Of a stretch of 35,554 nucleotides of DNA, positions 9,536-21,519 are shown piece by piece (position 1 is the stretch's first letter; the number at the start of each line of letters is the position of its first letter). The notes under the pieces are model-generated. The model worked only from the letters and a program-made list of their open reading frames with translations, was not told the origin of the DNA and did not search any database. The stretch comes from a virus. The stretch is taken from the IMG/VR virus record IMGVR_UViG_3300030328_003592, positions 1 through 35,554 of that record, one strand, 5' to 3'. The translations under genes were made by a program, and so were the position numbers.

Positions 9536-9555
9536 TCACATTCATAGGAGACAAA

Positions 9556-10377
9556 GTGAATGAGTTGGCATTATTTGCAGGAGCAGGAGGAGGTGTCCTC
9601 GGAGGGCATCTCTTGGGATGGAACACAGTTTGTGCCGTTGAGCGGGAAGACTACGCTCGGAGAGTATTGCTTGCCCGACAGCGGGACGGCATGTTGCCAA
9701 GATTCCCCATTTGGGATGACGTGTGCACCTTCCAGGGAGCGCCTTGGAAGGGGCGTATTCAGGTCATCAGCGGAGGATTTCCATGCCAGGACATCGCCCT
9801 CTGCGGCTCAGGAAAGGGACTGGACGGAGAGAAATCTGGTCTGTGGTCCGAGATGGCGCGGGTTGTTGGGGAGGTTCTCCCAAGATTCGTGTTCATTGAA
9901 AACTCCCCATTACTCACTTCTCGGGGGCTCAAACGAGTTCTCTGGGACCTTGCCCAAATGGGGTATGATGCTCGATGGGGAGTGCTTGGAGCTTACCAGG
10001 CCGGTGCTCCGCATCGCCGCAATAGAATCTGGATCGTTGCTTGCAACCCCGACAGCAACAGCAAACCAGTTGTCCCCCTCCATGATGAAACACCCAGGAT
10101 GCAGGAACTGGCTACCCACTTCAGCAGTGGCAGACTGGTCTCCGACAAACGGGGAAGTTTACAGAACCAAGACGGGCACCCTGCGGCTGAAGAGAGCCGA
10201 CGGAAGAACCAGCAGGATGGGCCTGGAAGCTCATGTTGGTGGAAAACTGAACCCGACGTGGGTAGAGTGGCTGATGGGATGGCCAACAGGATGGACAGAC
10301 TTAAAGCCATTGGCAATGGACAAGTACCGTCAGTGGCAGCTCTCGCTTGGAGGATATTAGCAGCACCATGGATCTAA
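9556..10377 (+). CDS. C5 cytosine DNA methyltransferase (273 aa)
   Basis: It starts with GTG five bases after AGGAG. It transfers a methyl group from S-adenosylmethionine to C5 of cytosine in a target site. Motif I is FAGAGGG (7-13), motif IV GGFPCQD with catalytic Cys77, motif VI ENS (Glu115-Asn-Ser), motif VIII HRRNRIW (153-159). The C-terminus has EPDVGRVADGMANRMDRLKA followed by IGNGQVPSVA (motif X region near Gly253). All key motifs are present, although the target-recognition region (about 165-235) is short. It may protect phage DNA from host restriction or regulate replication. The gene is overlapped over almost its whole length by a second frame (9560-10360) that itself looks like a known phage family. 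Confidence 0.92.
   Translation: MNELALFAGAGGGVLGGHLLGWNTVCAVEREDYARRVLLARQRDGMLPRFPIWDDVCTFQGAPWKGRIQVISGGFPCQDIALCGSGKGLDGEKSGLWSEMARVVGEVLPRFVFIENSPLLTSRGLKRVLWDLAQMGYDARWGVLGAYQAGAPHRRNRIWIVACNPDSNSKPVVPLHDETPRMQELATHFSSGRLVSDKRGSLQNQDGHPAAEESRRKNQQDGPGSSCWWKTEPDVGRVADGMANRMDRLKAIGNGQVPSVAALAWRILAAPWI
9560..10360 (+). CDS. Overprinted frame with phage methylase-associated motif (266 aa)
   Basis: This frame lies inside the methyltransferase gene, shifted by +1, and starts with ATG nine bases after the same AGGAG. It is open for 266 codons. Its product is not random-looking: EDFHARTSPSAAQ, SLLGGSNEFSGTLPKWGMM, SLLATPTATAN and LNPTWVEWLMGWPTGWTDL (residues 230-248) match the order of motifs I remember in phage and prophage proteins often annotated as methylase-like or hypothetical. 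Two explanations compete: both frames are used, or that family is a widespread artefact, a shadow of conserved methyltransferase DNA. I lean slightly to the first because the open frame is so long, but the evidence is indirect. Confidence 0.4.
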   Translation: MSWHYLQEQEEVSSEGISWDGTQFVPLSGKTTLGEYCLPDSGTACCQDSPFGMTCAPSRERLGRGVFRSSAEDFHARTSPSAAQERDWTERNLVCGPRWRGLLGRFSQDSCSLKTPHYSLLGGSNEFSGTLPKWGMMLDGECLELTRPVLRIAAIESGSLLATPTATANQLSPSMMKHPGCRNWLPTSAVADWSPTNGEVYRTKTGTLRLKRADGRTSRMGLEAHVGGKLNPTWVEWLMGWPTGWTDLKPLAMDKYRQWQLSLGGY

Positions 10378-10796
10378 TACCTATTGTAGAATTTCTAATC
10401 CCCTCCCCTATTGTGGGGAAGGGCCGCCCTCGATTGTGCCGCAAGTCTGGCAGAGTCTTCACCCCCAAGAGGACCCGTGACTATGAGCGGAGAGCGAAGC
10501 ACTTGGCGCACAAAGCCATGGATGCTGAGAGCCTTGGACCCCTCAAAGGGCCCGTTGGCATTCGCTTAATCATTGCCTACAAGACACCCAAGAGCAGGAA
10601 GAAAGAGACAGGGCAGTATTGTGCTTCAGGGCCCCCTCACTATGCTGACGTGGACAATGCCTGTAAAGCAGTTCTGGATTCCCTCAATCGTGTCGTATAT
10701 GATGATGATTGTCAGGTGGTGGCTCTATCGGTCTCCAAGAGATTCACAGCTGAGGGGGAAGCCCCCGGTGTTTATGTCCAGGTGTTTGAACTATGA
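10368..10796 (+). CDS. rusA: RusA-family Holliday junction resolvase (142 aa)
   Basis: It cuts four-way DNA junctions formed in recombination or replication, giving linear DNA suited to packaging. I choose ATG 10368, with GGAGG 14 bases upstream and a short overlap with the methyltransferase end; an in-frame TTG at 10347 is the alternative. The family pattern is clear: the N-terminal strand with SPIVGKGRPR, YADVDNACKAVLDSLNR with catalytic Asp94 and Asp96, and VVYDDDCQVV with Asp112-114. The length is a little above the usual 120 aa. The stop overlaps the next start as ATGA. Confidence 0.92.
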   Translation: MDLIPIVEFLIPSPIVGKGRPRLCRKSGRVFTPKRTRDYERRAKHLAHKAMDAESLGPLKGPVGIRLIIAYKTPKSRKKETGQYCASGPPHYADVDNACKAVLDSLNRVVYDDDCQVVALSVSKRFTAEGEAPGVYVQVFEL

Positions 10797-11023
10797 AGAG
10801 AAGCAAACGCAACTACAAGAAAGAATATCTTGAGTACCACGGCAAGCAGAAGCAGATTGATGATCGCAACAAGCGCAACAAGGCACGCCGAAAGATGAAA
10901 CTCAAGAAGGGTGACCCCAGGGAAGTGGACCACAAGAGGCCGTTATCCAAGGGTGGCGGCAACGGAAAGAAGAACCTGCGCGTCACGTCACGCAAGACCA
11001 ACCGCAAGAAGGGCCCCTACTAA
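10793..11023 (+). CDS. Small HNH-like protein (76 aa)
   Basis: It is very basic. The second half has the pattern EVDHKRPLSKGG then NGKKNLRVTSRKTNRKKG, which matches the core of phage HNH nucleases (Asp-His, a conserved Asn and a terminal Asn-Arg-Lys). It lacks the cysteine knuckles of larger HNH enzymes and is very short, so it may be a minimal nicking enzyme or a non-catalytic DNA binder. HNH proteins near packaging genes can assist terminase, but here the neighbour is RusA. ATGA overlap upstream and TAATG overlap downstream tie it to this operon. Confidence 0.75.
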   Translation: MKRSKRNYKKEYLEYHGKQKQIDDRNKRNKARRKMKLKKGDPREVDHKRPLSKGGGNGKKNLRVTSRKTNRKKGPY

Positions 11024-15097: not shown

Positions 15098-15144
15098 TGA
15101 GTCACTGTTGCTAATTACTATATACTATACGACACAGTGTCTCA
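15098..15144. promoter_or_regulatory. Operator cassette B (inverted 11-mers around TATA-rich core)
   Basis: TGAGTCACTGT (15098-15108, one mismatch) and ACAGTGTCTCA (15134-15144) flank a 25-base AT-rich core with two TATAGT-like -10 boxes on the minus strand. The right site includes the TGA stop codon of the 2125-aa gene. It is well placed to start the fibre and lysis transcript at the 15074 gene. Confidence 0.75.
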
Positions 15145-18100
15145 CTCATTAGTTGGTTGACCGGCTGCGTCAGTAACAGGCAGGCTGCTTAGAAGCGACA
15201 AGCGCTTGCGGTAAGCAATGCTCCCAGCAGTAGTTAAATCTACGCCAGGAATCATTGTAGAAGAGGCTGCCATGTAGAGCAACGCACTCTGTCTTCCAGT
15301 CCGCAGATTCTCCATGCCTTCAGGAGCGCCCAGGGCCATGTTTAAGATTTGCGACAACTCTACAACTCCGCGCTCTGCTTTGATAGACTCTGCAATTGCT
15401 GCAAGACTGAATGTCGCCAACTGTGAAGAGGCGTTTCCAAAAACATACTGAGCCCCGTCAAAAGTAGGGTTGTAGGACCTTTCTCGCGCTTCTGCGCCTG
15501 TAACTGGAACCCATCCTAATTTTTCAGCAATTTCGGCAGTGCAGTCAACATCCATTAATCTGGCGCACTGAGCTGCGGCGTTTACATATGTGTGCGGCAC
15601 CCGCATCCCTGGGGCATTAGGATTCCCTCTGCGTTTTGCTTCTTGCATTACAACGTCCATGGCCGTTTGTGCACCAAACCCTGAGGTCATTCTGAACACA
15701 TCGTCAACAGCAGCCATCCGCTGATCAGTAGAATAATATCCACCTAAAGTAGACATGGTGACCAACATTTCTAATCGTGGATCTGACAAACCAAAATCGC
15801 CCAGAGACCCGCCAGGAAAAAGTTCCGCAACATAAGCGCCAATGCGGGATTTGGTGTAATCAGGGAACAAATAACCTTCAAGGCCCTTGTCCATTCCTTC
15901 TTTTGCCCGGATTGTTCTGACAAGGTTCTCTGCTGCTTTACCTCCACTTCCAGCCGCTTTCAGGGTTTCAGCATACATACGGTATCTAAAAGACATAAAC
16001 GCAGCGTTTTTAGCCACCTTATGTCTTAAAACATGAGGCACATCATTGTAGTTAAGCAAAGCTTCATTGGCTAAAATCCGCGCTTCAGACCTGCTGTACC
16101 CACGCATGATTGATTCAAGGAAAACATTTTCGCGGAACACTCTGTCCATAGCGTAGCCGGCTATGTTCAAATAGTTCATAAGATCGCGGTTGCTTGTAAA
16201 CGATTGCCCAATCCGCCGAAGGCCTCCAACAGGCCGAAACAATTTATCGCGCCCAGAGGCTTGTATTACTTGCCTGCCCAACGAATCAGCCAAGTTGAAA
16301 GTGACTTGGTTGGCAAACTCTTCCTCACGCACCATACGAATCAAGTCATAGTTGCTGTACTCCACTCCGGTCGCTGTAGTGTATCGAGGCTGGGTCAACC
16401 CTCCGTAAGTGTTTAAGCCTGGCTGAGTGTTCAGGAATTGATGAATATCCATGCCCTGGCGAGCTGCTTGGGCCTCTGCATTAGCATAATCAGATGTGCC
16501 TAAATCAAGTTCCATCTGAAACTTTGTTGCCCTGGCAAGTTGTTCGTCTCTTATTGCAGCAGCTTTAGCAGGCTCAGCCTCTACCATTCTGCGAGTTGTT
16601 TGACTCATAGAATCTGCATTAATCAAGCGTCGAACCGTCAGAAAATTCAGTCCTCGCGGCAACATTGACAGAAAAGCTGCAGGAATCGCAGATATCACCC
16701 TGGTTGTAAATCCAGGCACTGTGGTAGAACTAAGCATTGGAGCGCCAAGACCGTTAGGCGAAAAGTACCTTGACGTTGGCACCGGTATAAACCCAAGCAC
16801 AAACGAGCCACCCAGCAGCCCGCTTATAATTTGTCTACGGGTCTTGTCAGCAAACGTAAGGAAACCAGAGCCAAGCCGAGTTAGCGGAGTTGTGTCCCCA
16901 TCAGGCAAACTTTTTTGCAGTTTCTGTACAAAGTCAGGGTTTAACATCTTCTGAAAGCCAGCCTGCTGCTGAGGAGTCAGGGGCAAATATTGGTTTGTTT
17001 CTCCAAGTTTCTGCCAAGTAGCCATTAAATTTTCAGCCGACCCTGCCAACTCACCGCCAGTTGTCCCGCTGGTAACAACATACGCGTTCAGATCTCTTAA
17101 AGACTGCCCTGCCCTGCTTTCAATAATCCGCCTTGCTTCTGCCGCCTCAGCGTCTACATCGATCCGATAAGCAGGAATGTCTGTATTTGTGCGAAGCACA
17201 TCAACAGACCCACGCAACCGCTGGCGCTTGTCTTTTAACTCTTGAATTTGCTCATCAACAGTTGCTTGACGCCCCTTTCTTTGCTCAACCAATTGCTCAA
17301 TTTCTTGTTGTTGTGCAGCTTTTTGCTCTTTAAGGCGCCCTTCTCTCTCAACTCTGAGGCCTTTTTTGCCAATTTGTTTTGGCATTTTTTGAGACTTTTT
17401 AAAGTTCTTTGCCTGCTCTTTTAAAGCATCATCGCGAACCTTAAACTGCAGCGCCAATGCTTTCTTCTGATTGTTAGCCTTTACAAGAGCATCTTCAGTC
17501 TTTGCGTCCATCAAGTCTTTAAGAGCTTTTTGTAAATTAGTGCTGCCAGGAGGACGACCCTGCCTTAGTGCTCGCATTTCAGTAACGTAAACTCCAGACA
17601 TCTCCGTCATCATATCGACAGTAGTGTCGTAAAGTTGTCTGTGTTCTTTATTAAGGTTTCGAATGCGCATATCCCTTTTGGCTTGCACGCTGCCAAGAGC
17701 TTCATTGCTTGCTCGATTGGCTTCTTGGATTGCAACTGCCATGGCATCTGCTTGGGATGGGTCTTCACGCATAATTCGCAAAGCGTCTTCAATCACTTCA
17801 TCAGACTTAGCAACAATGTCATCAGCCTCTTTTGTAATCTTCTTTAGATCTTCTTTGGCTGCTGTTGTGTAGGCCTTTCTTACTTTAATGTAGTCGCCGT
17901 GCGCGGATGCCGCTGCAGACCTGTACTCGTTATGAGCCTTTACAGCGTCTTCCGCATTGTTTGGAAAGAAGTCGCGAATCCTTCCAGCCTGCGCCGTAAC
18001 TTCAGTGCTCACTTTGCGAAAGCCGGTAAGAATCCGCATAAAGCTATGGTCATCACTGTTAAAAGCTTCGGCCATGCGCGCAGCTGCTGCATTTTCCATT

Positions 18101-21100
18101 TGCTGTGCTACAGAATCAGAATGCTGCTGCGCTTTAATCGCTGCTGCCTCTCCTTTTTCTTTAGCAAACTCTTGCTCAACCTTCTTTATTTCATCGTCTT
18201 GGACTTTCTTATTCTCTAAGAACAAAGCCCTTTCTGCGTCGCGTTGTTTTTTTATAGACTCTTGATACCGCTTGATGCCTTCACTGTAGCGTTGATTAAG
18301 GTCTTTAATTTTTTCTTGGGTTTCTGCTCGAATCTCTGCGCGCTCAACCTTTCCGGCTTCTCTTTGCTCTGCAATTAACCGCTTCTCTTCATCGGTAATC
18401 TTTCGCAATTCTCTTAAAGAAGCCTCGCTTTCTCGAATCTCAGAAAGAGCCGCCTGCCTTGCATCTTTGTAGTACTTTGCTTCTAAAGAAAGTCTGAGCC
18501 TCTCCTCACCATCTTTGAATACGCGCTTTGCCATTTCATAGGCAATGTCAGAAGTATTTATAGAAGTAGGTAATTCACCACCTCTAAAAATTTGCTCAAG
18601 ATACTGATCAACCATCTGCTTGCTTTTTGCAGACACTACAAGGTCAGGGTTCTCTACAATAAACTCATTGATAATCCGCGCAATAGCAGGCTTTTGAACG
18701 CGTGCCTCTAATATATAAGCCAAAGTCCCTTGAGTGAGAGCCTCTGTTTCTTTAAGGCCAGTGCCAACAAACTCCCGCAGAGCTGAACCGTCTTTGGGCG
18801 CAGAACTTTTAAGGCCAACATAGGTTCTCCGACGAGCACGCAGCCCATCGCGCTCAGCCTGCGTAATGCGAGGGTCTGTGAGAATATCGTCAGCAACAAA
18901 ACGAACATGCTCTAAAGCATCTACATTGTCCGGCACTTTAGTAACGCGCAGCGCATCCTCTAAACTCTTGGGCAATGTCTTGCCGTAGATTGCTTGCATT
19001 ACTGGCAGCATCCCATCAGGATCTGAGTTTATTGTGGCCTTTGCTTCGTTGGCTAAAAGTTGTTGCGGATTAGGTGAGTTCACAACATTCTGCAGAAACC
19101 TGTTTGTTGGGTCTTTAAGCTGTGCTTCAGCATTCTCTGTAAACCTGCGGAAGGCGGTCATTTCCCCACCCCCAACAGGCTCTAAAATCTTGCCACGCGC
19201 ACGCTGCAGTCCCAACGCCAATTCTTTTACCTTGCCCTTACCCAAGACATCCCTGCGGCGCTCAGGAGGCAGTCTGGCGGCTGCGTAGTCTTGGTCCTGA
19301 ATGTACTTAGGCTTTAGTGTTCTCGCACCGTAGGTTGTGCTTAAAATGCCGTCCTGGAGTGCTTCTACTGTGCTGTTATACTCTTTCAAGTTTAATGCGT
19401 CGCCGCCTCGCACTTTGCGAACAACTTTGCTCCAATAAGGAGAGGCCGCAACTTTAGAAGCTCCCAACTCATTCGTCATAATGCGAGCAGCATCGTCACC
19501 ATTGTTTATGCGATACATGCTACCAGTAGCGCCAAACTCAGCACTGACATCAGAGCCTTCTAAATAAGGTCGCAACTCTTGTGACAACAAGTTTCGAGCC
19601 TCATCATAATTTTCAGTGCGCACCATCGTATGCATGTTTAAGAATCGCCAAGCGTCGCCGCCTGTTGCTGCAACAATAGAAGTCTGTATCTGAGGCGTCA
19701 GGTTGCGAGACAAGTACAATTGCTTGAAACGATTGTAATGCACAGAATTGCGAGACAACTCTTTAAGAAACGTAGATGTGGTGGTTGTAAGCGCATTATC
19801 GCCCAGACGTCCAGGTTTATTTTGCAAAGTCCAAAGCACATCTGCGGCAGAACGCTGCAACGCTTTAGGCGCCTTGCCGGTAATCTGAGAAGCATACAAA
19901 GCCAGATTGCTGCGCAGGTCAAATGCATTATTGGTGAAGCCACCTGTTTCTTCAGCATTCTTCAAAGAGCTTGTCAAAGTCTCTTCAGCATTATCAATAA
20001 TACTGGCGTAAATCCTTGTGCCTTCATCAGCCTGCAGCCCCGCTTTCATGCTGGGGTTGTTGACATAGTTGTTAGCCACATTGTCTGCTGCTACAGCGCT
20101 GAGGTTGTTGTCTACTTTAGTAAAGTCATACACTTCATCTACAAGAGGCTCAACAGCTCGGAAGGCATTGTAATTGCGAACTTGCCACAAGGGATGTTGA
20201 ACAACACGGGCAGCCTGAGCCGCCTTTGTGGCACCACGGGCCTCAGCAATTGCTTCTGCTCCTTTTGCTGCACCGCGAACCATAGCAATTGGAACCTTTG
20301 GCGCAACAAATGGGGTAGGGTCAGCAAATGACGCAGCAACACCAACCCAAAGTGGACCGTTGCTATAGCCAAGATCTTCCCACATCTTTGTCATCATGGG
20401 CATACGCATAAACTTAGTGCCTAAGAAATCACCCTTGCGCATGGTCGCACCAGCATCCAACAGCAAGTCTCCTGTAGGAGGCAGCATGGTGGTCTTCTCA
20501 GGGTCAAAACGTTCCTCGGCCTCAAGCGGCATGCCTGCAGTATCAATGGTATTTACAAGAGCTGACCATCGAGCATAGATGTCTCCGCCGTTAGCATAAG
20601 CTTCTTTGAGTTCTTCCTCGCCCCTTTCATAGGCCCTGTAAGCAGGATCTGAAGGGTCCACAGGCTCATACTTTCCAGTCTCTGGATTGTAAACTGTAGC
20701 GTACGTTGCCATATTAGACATGCTCATAGTCACTGAATCCAACAAGCCGCCAATGACGCGCATGTTACGCATAGTGTTGGACTCAACAATACGTGACGGG
20801 TAGCCAACTGCGCCCCCATCTGGAATGCCTAACGCCTTTAACTGAGCTGCTTCTTGTTGCTGCTCTTTCAGTCCTGGAATCTCTTCTTCCAAAGCCTCTT
20901 TGATAATTTCCTCGCGCCGATCAACATCAATGCCTTTCTCTTCCAACATTTCTTGTAGCGGAAAAGTGCCTGCAGCCCGAACGCGCTTTCGAATAGGCTC
21001 CCCTGCTTTAATTTTTTCGGCAATCTTAGGCTGAATTCTTTCAGTAAACTGCGGGTCTTCTGCTAATTCAGGGACTAAGAGTTGTCTTTCCGTTGATCCC

Positions 21101-21519
21101 AACAGATACTTCAGTTGGACATTCATCGGAATGTCTTCACCCTCACGCTTGGGTGGCTGTGTTGTTCGCCGTCTAATCTCTTCTGGCGTAAGCAAGTCTT
21201 CTTTCTTAACTACCTGCGCTCCAAAACCGCCCATTGTTATGGGCCTATACAGAGCCTCCTCAACAAGTTCTTTGCTGACACCGCCTGGACGTGTAGACAA
21301 TCGCCCTGCAGCAAACGCAAGGTCAGCAAAGTTTTCTGGAACCTTTGGCTTTTCAAAACTTTGTTGCGGCAAATCAGTGCTTGCAGCCTGCTCCAGCACC
21401 ATTTCCGCACTTTTAACAGAATCCAACCTTAAATAAAGATCTACTTGGGCTTTTGTTTCTGCCGAAGATTGAGCGTAAGTATCTTGCTGTTGCTTGTTAA
21501 GACTTTCCAGTTCTGCCAC
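15142..21519 (-). CDS. Giant internal virion protein, gp16-like role (2125 aa)
   Basis: This one gene takes 18 percent of the genome. It is the last of three genes (218, 463, 2125 aa) that follow the tail genes in the same order as T7 gp14, gp15 and gp16, which form the DNA-ejection channel. By that analogy it would be packed inside the capsid and injected with the DNA. Residues about 930-1360 are dense coiled coil, with many K/E/R/Q-rich stretches such as EEKRLIAEQREAGKVERAE. A hydrophobic stretch near 1480 (IISGLLGGSFVLGFIPVPTS) could insert in membrane. The N-terminal part is charged and partly disordered. I see no sure enzyme motif. It is much larger than T7 gp16 (about 1320 aa), so extra domains are likely. 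Confidence 0.65.
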   Translation of the reverse strand: MAELESLNKQQQDTYAQSSAETKAQVDLYLRLDSVKSAEMVLEQAASTDLPQQSFEKPKVPENFADLAFAAGRLSTRPGGVSKELVEEALYRPITMGGFGAQVVKKEDLLTPEEIRRRTTQPPKREGEDIPMNVQLKYLLGSTERQLLVPELAEDPQFTERIQPKIAEKIKAGEPIRKRVRAAGTFPLQEMLEEKGIDVDRREEIIKEALEEEIPGLKEQQQEAAQLKALGIPDGGAVGYPSRIVESNTMRNMRVIGGLLDSVTMSMSNMATYATVYNPETGKYEPVDPSDPAYRAYERGEEELKEAYANGGDIYARWSALVNTIDTAGMPLEAEERFDPEKTTMLPPTGDLLLDAGATMRKGDFLGTKFMRMPMMTKMWEDLGYSNGPLWVGVAASFADPTPFVAPKVPIAMVRGAAKGAEAIAEARGATKAAQAARVVQHPLWQVRNYNAFRAVEPLVDEVYDFTKVDNNLSAVAADNVANNYVNNPSMKAGLQADEGTRIYASIIDNAEETLTSSLKNAEETGGFTNNAFDLRSNLALYASQITGKAPKALQRSAADVLWTLQNKPGRLGDNALTTTTSTFLKELSRNSVHYNRFKQLYLSRNLTPQIQTSIVAATGGDAWRFLNMHTMVRTENYDEARNLLSQELRPYLEGSDVSAEFGATGSMYRINNGDDAARIMTNELGASKVAASPYWSKVVRKVRGGDALNLKEYNSTVEALQDGILSTTYGARTLKPKYIQDQDYAAARLPPERRRDVLGKGKVKELALGLQRARGKILEPVGGGEMTAFRRFTENAEAQLKDPTNRFLQNVVNSPNPQQLLANEAKATINSDPDGMLPVMQAIYGKTLPKSLEDALRVTKVPDNVDALEHVRFVADDILTDPRITQAERDGLRARRRTYVGLKSSAPKDGSALREFVGTGLKETEALTQGTLAYILEARVQKPAIARIINEFIVENPDLVVSAKSKQMVDQYLEQIFRGGELPTSINTSDIAYEMAKRVFKDGEERLRLSLEAKYYKDARQAALSEIRESEASLRELRKITDEEKRLIAEQREAGKVERAEIRAETQEKIKDLNQRYSEGIKRYQESIKKQRDAERALFLENKKVQDDEIKKVEQEFAKEKGEAAAIKAQQHSDSVAQQMENAAAARMAEAFNSDDHSFMRILTGFRKVSTEVTAQAGRIRDFFPNNAEDAVKAHNEYRSAAASAHGDYIKVRKAYTTAAKEDLKKITKEADDIVAKSDEVIEDALRIMREDPSQADAMAVAIQEANRASNEALGSVQAKRDMRIRNLNKEHRQLYDTTVDMMTEMSGVYVTEMRALRQGRPPGSTNLQKALKDLMDAKTEDALVKANNQKKALALQFKVRDDALKEQAKNFKKSQKMPKQIGKKGLRVEREGRLKEQKAAQQQEIEQLVEQRKGRQATVDEQIQELKDKRQRLRGSVDVLRTNTDIPAYRIDVDAEAAEARRIIESRAGQSLRDLNAYVVTSGTTGGELAGSAENLMATWQKLGETNQYLPLTPQQQAGFQKMLNPDFVQKLQKSLPDGDTTPLTRLGSGFLTFADKTRRQIISGLLGGSFVLGFIPVPTSRYFSPNGLGAPMLSSTTVPGFTTRVISAIPAAFLSMLPRGLNFLTVRRLINADSMSQTTRRMVEAEPAKAAAIRDEQLARATKFQMELDLGTSDYANAEAQAARQGMDIHQFLNTQPGLNTYGGLTQPRYTTATGVEYSNYDLIRMVREEEFANQVTFNLADSLGRQVIQASGRDKLFRPVGGLRRIGQSFTSNRDLMNYLNIAGYAMDRVFRENVFLESIMRGYSRSEARILANEALLNYNDVPHVLRHKVAKNAAFMSFRYRMYAETLKAAGSGGKAAENLVRTIRAKEGMDKGLEGYLFPDYTKSRIGAYVAELFPGGSLGDFGLSDPRLEMLVTMSTLGGYYSTDQRMAAVDDVFRMTSGFGAQTAMDVVMQEAKRRGNPNAPGMRVPHTYVNAAAQCARLMDVDCTAEIAEKLGWVPVTGAEARERSYNPTFDGAQYVFGNASSQLATFSLAAIAESIKAERGVVELSQILNMALGAPEGMENLRTGRQSALLYMAASSTMIPGVDLTTAGSIAYRKRLSLLSSLPVTDAAGQPTNE

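Follow-up and report, generated by a model that had tools for sequence, protein, structure and literature searches.

Two-polypeptide C5 cytosine methyltransferases provide the closest described precedents for the locus reported here. In M.EcoHK31I, the larger polypeptide carries motifs I-VIII and X, and only motif IX lies on the smaller polypeptide (PMC3404938). Its beta gene (176 aa) is reported to sit wholly inside the alpha gene in another reading frame (Lee, Kam and Shaw 1995), and M.EaeI is a further two-polypeptide enzyme of the same kind. M.AquI is a split C5 methyltransferase whose two polypeptides jointly carry one motif set; it is divided by position, with the smaller subunit made up of the distal variable region and motifs IX-X, and dual use of one DNA stretch is not reported for it in that source (PMC3404938).

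Like M.EcoHK31I, the present locus places motifs I-VIII and X on a larger polypeptide (frame 1) and a motif-IX segment on a smaller one (frame 2, residues 228-248). It also shares, as reported for M.EcoHK31I, the nesting of the smaller gene in the larger in another frame, and in distant relatives of the locus the nested frames measure 168-202 codons. It differs in the extent of the overlap, 97% of alpha, and in the position of the beta start, 4 nt downstream of the alpha start. Further, the recognition domain is predicted to lie in the larger subunit of M.EcoHK31I (PMC3404938), whereas here the corresponding region is neutral in frame 1 and constrained in frame 2. M.EcoHK31I also belongs to a type II restriction-modification system, but no such partner was recognised here: a Pfam search of ten neighbouring genes revealed no restriction enzyme, although these enzymes often escape Pfam. 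As in M.AquI, two polypeptides would jointly supply one motif set, but the division would not be one of position.

The locus lies in a stretch of 35,554 nucleotides, hereafter the window, which is an IMG/VR virus record (IMGVR_UViG_3300030328_003592). Its features are collected in Table 1. The overlap between the frames amounts to 801 of 822 nt, with frame 2 shifted by +1, and both starts follow the same AGGAG, which in the sequence is spaced 5 nt from the frame-1 GTG and 9 nt from the frame-2 ATG. A frame-2 stop, TGA at 9557-9559, stands immediately 5′ of that ATG. The motifs visible in frame 1 are GGFPCQD, ENS, RRNRIW and GNGQVP, and those in frame 2 are EDFHARTS, FSGTLPKWGMM and LNPTWVEWLMGWPTGWTDL. 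The DNA encoding the frame-1 linker between motifs VIII and X overlaps a recognition-like region of frame 2 (TPTATAN...). Directly 3′ of the methyltransferase (10368-11020) are genes for a RusA-type resolvase and a small HNH-like protein (weak Pfam match). The longest open reading frame of the window, of 2125 codons, occupies 15142-21519 on the minus strand.

Table 1. Features of the overlapping methyltransferase locus, in window coordinates.
Feature	Position	Strand	Remarks
Shine-Dalgarno-like AGGAG, probably common to both frames	9546..9550	+	Read from sequence
Frame 1, alpha: C5 cytosine methyltransferase catalytic polypeptide	9556..10377	+	273 aa; GTG start; motifs I, IV, VI, VIII, X
Frame 2, beta: probably recognition/motif IX subunit of the same enzyme	9560..10360	+	266 aa; +1 frame; ATG start
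PCQD, catalytic motif IV, frame 1	9781..9792	+	Same DNA encodes frame-2 DFHART; alignment columns invariant or nearly so
Frame-1 linker between motifs VIII and X	10048..10239	+	Residues about 165-228; usual place of the recognition domain
Frame-2 motif-IX-like segment LNPTWVEWLMGWPTGWTDL	10247..10303	+	hhalign to monomers; frame 1 there encodes EPDVGRVADGMANRMDRL
GNGQVP, motif X, frame 1	10312..10329	+	Sequence and family alignment

Frame 1 is readily recognised as the catalytic part of a C5 methyltransferase. It matches PF00145 in Pfam (E=2.3e-27, residues 5-200) and PHROG_363 (8e-63), and its family profile matches M.HhaI (2e-21). Five C5 motifs occur in order: I, IV (PCQ), VI (EN), VIII (RxR) and X (GNxxxP). 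The recognition domain and motif IX expected between VIII and X are absent from this frame; the Pfam match stops at residue 200, and the profile match to monomeric methyltransferases at residue 168. An AF2 model predicts a C5 catalytic domain and a motif-X helix (258-269), with residues 176-255 predicted to be disordered (pLDDT below 50 almost throughout), and Foldseek with this model returns DNMT1, M.HaeIII and M.HhaI. Because the recognition domain and motif IX are missing, we infer from sequence, without activity data, that frame 1 by itself is likely to be an incomplete enzyme.

Frame 2 is kept free of stop codons far beyond what the frame-1 protein and its codon use predict. Expectations were derived by permuting synonymous codons within each gene, leaving the protein and the codon pool unchanged. 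The window gene has no frame-2 stop, against a mean of 4.0 in 2000 such shuffles (p=0.0045). When 113 IMG/VR loci were compared by tblastn in each frame separately, the +1 frame aligned over nearly all of frame 1 and the start position was identical in almost every locus, with frame-1 identity of 42-63% for most. Among 87 non-redundant homologues, 86 lack a frame-2 stop in the core, and 0.11 stops per gene were seen versus 4.7 expected; the third frame has 15.3 stops versus 12.9 expected. Eighty of these loci (L001-L080) had been chosen by a frame-2 motif, which is a possible selection bias, and further loci were therefore chosen from IMG/VR and GTDB by frame-1 patterns only, as a check on it. 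In these, frame 2 is stop-free in 79 of 79 IMG/VR loci and 79 of 80 GTDB loci, and the sole exception (L237) has a broken frame 1 as well. Even the first 65 codons of frame 2 contain no stops in 86 genes of the window's clade, versus 53 expected. On this computational evidence, dual coding of the DNA is very probable; translation of both frames remains an inference.

Substitution patterns point the same way. We compared changes that are non-synonymous in both frames with changes that are synonymous in frame 2 only (dNN/dNS), using 303 pairs from 219 unique genes. The ratio for frame 2 is 0.51 (0.34-0.74) over codons 3-65, 0.51 (0.41-0.64) from there to motif VIII, 0.64 (0.56-0.71) in the linker and 0.20 (0.10-0.36) in the C-terminal segment, the most constrained part of frame 2. 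The unused third frame, as a control, gives 1.22-1.65. The frame-1 linker between motifs VIII and X is neutral (dNN/dSN 1.07, 0.95-1.19). A smaller gene set gave weaker dNN/dNS values in the same direction, and when transitions and transversions were split the N-terminal intervals became wide and partly included 1. The intervals come from column resampling only, and the pairs share ancestry and are not independent. With these reservations, there is strong support for purifying selection on frame 2 over its length.

The start codon of frame 2 is maintained as well. Across 230 distinct loci it is kept in 225 (ATG in 220, GTG in 5), and an SD-like core lies 4-13 nt upstream in 201 of the 230. The second codon of frame 1, where Asn is encoded, is AAT in 215 cases versus AAC in one; elsewhere in the genes AAT occurs 926 times and AAC 1395 times. 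All five variants with His at this codon use CAT, so the frame-2 ATG survives. The frame-1 start is less fixed, being ATG, GTG or TTG in 188 loci and missing from that position in 42. In most loci of the TTA type, frame 1 begins upstream and an SD-like core still precedes the frame-2 ATG. In loci of the CTT type, the codon choice of frame 1 no longer yields MSWL, and a start of the form MSWLISKAL is encoded further upstream, so that the pattern MSWLxSxAL has been rebuilt from upstream DNA; in one locus (L220) the upstream frame-2 start reads MTWLFSRAL in the DNA. From these codon and start counts, we consider selection on the frame-2 start to be very well supported.

The sequence-only reading of the window had described a C5 methyltransferase and a 266-codon +1 frame covering 97% of it from the same ribosome site, and this description held. 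It had left the choice between a dual-coding gene and an annotation shadow, and dual coding is now favoured. The two outcomes it had named as refutations both failed to appear: homologues do not have a freely broken +1 frame and instead keep frame 2 open, and frame-1 constraint does not explain frame 2, given the shuffles, dNN/dNS, the third frame, the fixed start and the monomers.

Those monomers also indicate what frame 2 may be. In one natural indel locus, L106, the frame-1 N-terminus is joined to the frame-2 C-terminus, and a search with this sequence led to monomeric phage methyltransferases, namely Gordonia JKSyngboy gp4, Mycobacterium Martik gp71 and Rothia Spartoi gp40. All of these encode, in one frame, a catalytic domain followed by LSPVFVEWMMGLPRGWVT, LSAVFPEWMMGWPAGWVT or LNPEFSEWMMGLPKGWIT and then GNGVVP, and two of the three contain LPTP or MPTP stretches resembling those of frame 2. 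PF00145 covers two of the three end to end, and the middle segment therefore occupies the motif-IX slot. By hhalign, frame 1 aligns with the monomer catalytic domain (E=2e-40, residues 5-168), and the end of frame 2, LNPTWVEWLMGWPTGWT, aligns with the monomer motif-IX segment (E=6e-10, residues 228-248, 21 columns). The monomers thus share the catalytic domain and a homologous motif-IX segment with our locus, but they carry everything in one frame, have GNGVVP after the motif-IX segment and leave the +1 frame unprotected, with 283 stops versus 301 expected, though most are at 60-70% GC. By this control, the +1 frame is protected where frame 1 lacks motif IX.

Frame 2 matches PHROG_1008 (1.3e-17, in two stretches) and also PHROG_26627 and PHROG_35493, which match its distant relatives too. 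The suggestion in the sequence-only reading that its last motif is common in phage proteins is thereby upheld; that reading gave no identity for frame 2, the C-terminal end of which is now matched to the motif-IX segment of monomers. PHROG_1008 bears no label beyond 'DNA methyltransferase', the function of the other two families is unknown, and no label mentions nesting. No relatives of frame 2 were found in Pfam, NCBIfam or solved-structure profiles. Its structural model is of low confidence over residues 1-190 (mean pLDDT 55.5) and fair to good over residues 191-266 (block means 68-90), and a Foldseek search with this poor model gave no fold match. For the N-terminal two thirds no relatives are known beyond these loci, yet this part is constrained. 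Computation thus shows that frame 2 is maintained and selected as a protein, that its start is kept and that its end is homologous to the motif-IX segment of monomers. Because of that last match, the two products are probably subunits of one enzyme, and frame 2 is likely to be the partner of the frame-1 methyltransferase; translation, assembly and activity are inferred. This subunit reading is limited by the lack of expression, interaction or activity data, and by a motif-IX homology that spans only 21 columns.

Relatives are encoded in at least 597 IMG/VR stretches, and the +1 orientation is found in the window and nearly all homologues. Distant methyltransferases have the short nested +1 frame over their C-terminal two thirds only, on a Methanomethylovorans plasmid and in phages of Stenotrophomonas, Mycobacterium, Synechococcus and Porphyromonas. 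Among 198 Enterobacteriaceae genomes, 13 have PHROG_1008 matches, and the loci compared all place the matching frame at +1 inside a methyltransferase ORF, as do loci of Kluyvera, Citrobacter and Lelliottia. A catalytic-domain tree suggests the order monomer, short beta, full beta, with the short form older than the full one, but does no more than suggest it: the tree has many weak forks and long branches, and its root is arbitrary.

Individual loci vary in form and annotation. A divergent methyltransferase group in Enterobacteriaceae (L297, L338-L347) has a nested PHROG_1008 frame of 223-322 codons from stop to stop, and in many of these loci AGGAG lies 8-9 nt 5′ of an internal ATG. The archaeal plasmid pMETHO01 of Methanomethylovorans hollandica carries the short nested form within an annotated dcm gene (L119:2929-3465). 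In the record of Pseudomonas phage VB_PaD_phPA-G, only frame 2 is called (as hypothetical protein XAI65183.1), and the methyltransferase frame is left out (L117:3001-3729). In Mycobacterium phage Jinglebell the methyltransferase-like match falls in two pieces (L288:3001-3676), over which the minus-strand hypothetical genes 75 and 76 are annotated. A few loci, L105, L106, L092 and L237, break or swap frames. In L106 (2447-3484) and L092 (2501-3397) a frame switch brings the frame-1 N-terminus and the frame-2 motif-IX segment into one ORF, the switch in L092 taking in only the last part of the frame-2 C-terminal segment; these could be either real fusions or indel errors. L105 (2712 onward) has two stops in the N-terminal part of frame 2, with the last 131 codons open and beginning with a GTG behind AAGGAGGGCATAA, and may represent a shortened beta.

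Among alternatives to the subunit reading, the one that survives best holds that frame 2 is a real protein with a role of its own, such as a regulator, inhibitor or anti-restriction factor. Accessory roles are frequent among overprinted viral proteins, and the N-terminal two thirds are constrained (dNN/dNS 0.51) without outside relatives. However, the C-terminal segment, under the strongest constraint in frame 2, shows homology to motif IX of this very enzyme family, and within the Enterobacteriaceae sample the frame-2 family was found only inside a methyltransferase gene. We regard this alternative as unlikely.

Programmed frameshifting from frame 1 into frame 2 would give a monomer-like fusion of the catalytic and recognition/motif IX parts. 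In its favour, the indels of L106 and L092 put the frame-1 N-terminus in frame with LNPTWVEWLMGWP, and monomeric relatives show the same domain order. Such a fusion, however, would not need a conserved start, a preceding SD or the rebuilt MSWLxSxAL of the CTT-type loci, nor would it need the first 160 codons of frame 2 to be stop-free and selected, and on these grounds it is very improbable. Also very unlikely is the proposal that only the C-terminal part of frame 2 (from about residue 55-95 on) is functional, from an internal start, with the first 60 codons passively open. Distant relatives and L105 do retain only the last 131-223 codons, some with an internal SD and start, but codons 1-65 lack the expected stops in the window's clade, dNN/dNS is well below 1 over codons 3-65, and conservation extends to the first ATG and the MSWL motif. 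Finally, an annotation shadow, with frame 2 open and similar only through frame-1 conservation and codon use that avoids +1 stops, can draw on the strong conservation of frame 1 and on the position of EDFHARTS and FSGTLPKWGMM over motifs IV and VI-VIII, but is rejected by the synonymous shuffles, third-frame control and monomer control, and is all but excluded once the linker (constrained in frame 2, neutral in frame 1), the start fixed through synonymous codon choice and the expected +1 stops of monomers with comparable catalytic domains, even at 60-70% GC, are considered.

We therefore return to the two-subunit explanation, which as a whole we judge likely, although translation of both frames, assembly, subunit roles, activity and purpose are all inferred. 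One DNA segment would supply both polypeptides of a two-subunit C5 cytosine methyltransferase. Alpha would provide the domain for SAM binding and catalysis, with motifs I-VIII and X, and the C-terminal part of beta would provide the recognition region and the motif IX missing from alpha. Both would be translated from one ribosome-binding site, starting at GTG 9556 and ATG 9560, and tandem starts 4 nt apart could set the alpha:beta ratio. Once assembled, alpha and beta would be active in cytosine methylation of phage DNA, presumably as protection against host restriction.

We speculate further, and far more tentatively, that the enzyme is divided by reading frame and not by position. On this bolder reading, the recognition part of an ancestral monomer may have moved into the +1 frame and become beta, with the alpha linker left as its overprinted shadow, and beta may have been extended upstream over the catalytic domain until both starts had one ribosome-binding site. 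In beta, the N-terminal two thirds are overprinted and probably disordered, and they may have acquired an additional function.

In the literature searched, which was open-licence only, we came across no account of this overlap in phages. Three features are new relative to M.EcoHK31I: the overlap is nearly complete, the starts lie in tandem and the arrangement is widespread in phages. At 266 codons, the gene seems to rank among the longest and most widely conserved cases of same-strand dual coding in DNA phages, and the arrangement is kept in hundreds of phages and prophages from several phyla. Gene finders call one frame only, and the records therefore lack one of the two products, the catalytic polypeptide or its probable partner. 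The monomer, short-beta and full-beta forms represent a testable series for the origin and growth of overlapping genes. If the pairing is true, many orphan phage methyltransferases cannot function in their annotated form, and both methylome predictions and cloning with frame 1 alone, or with a recoded frame 1, would fail. Such a pairing would also provide a new supply of naturally split methyltransferases.
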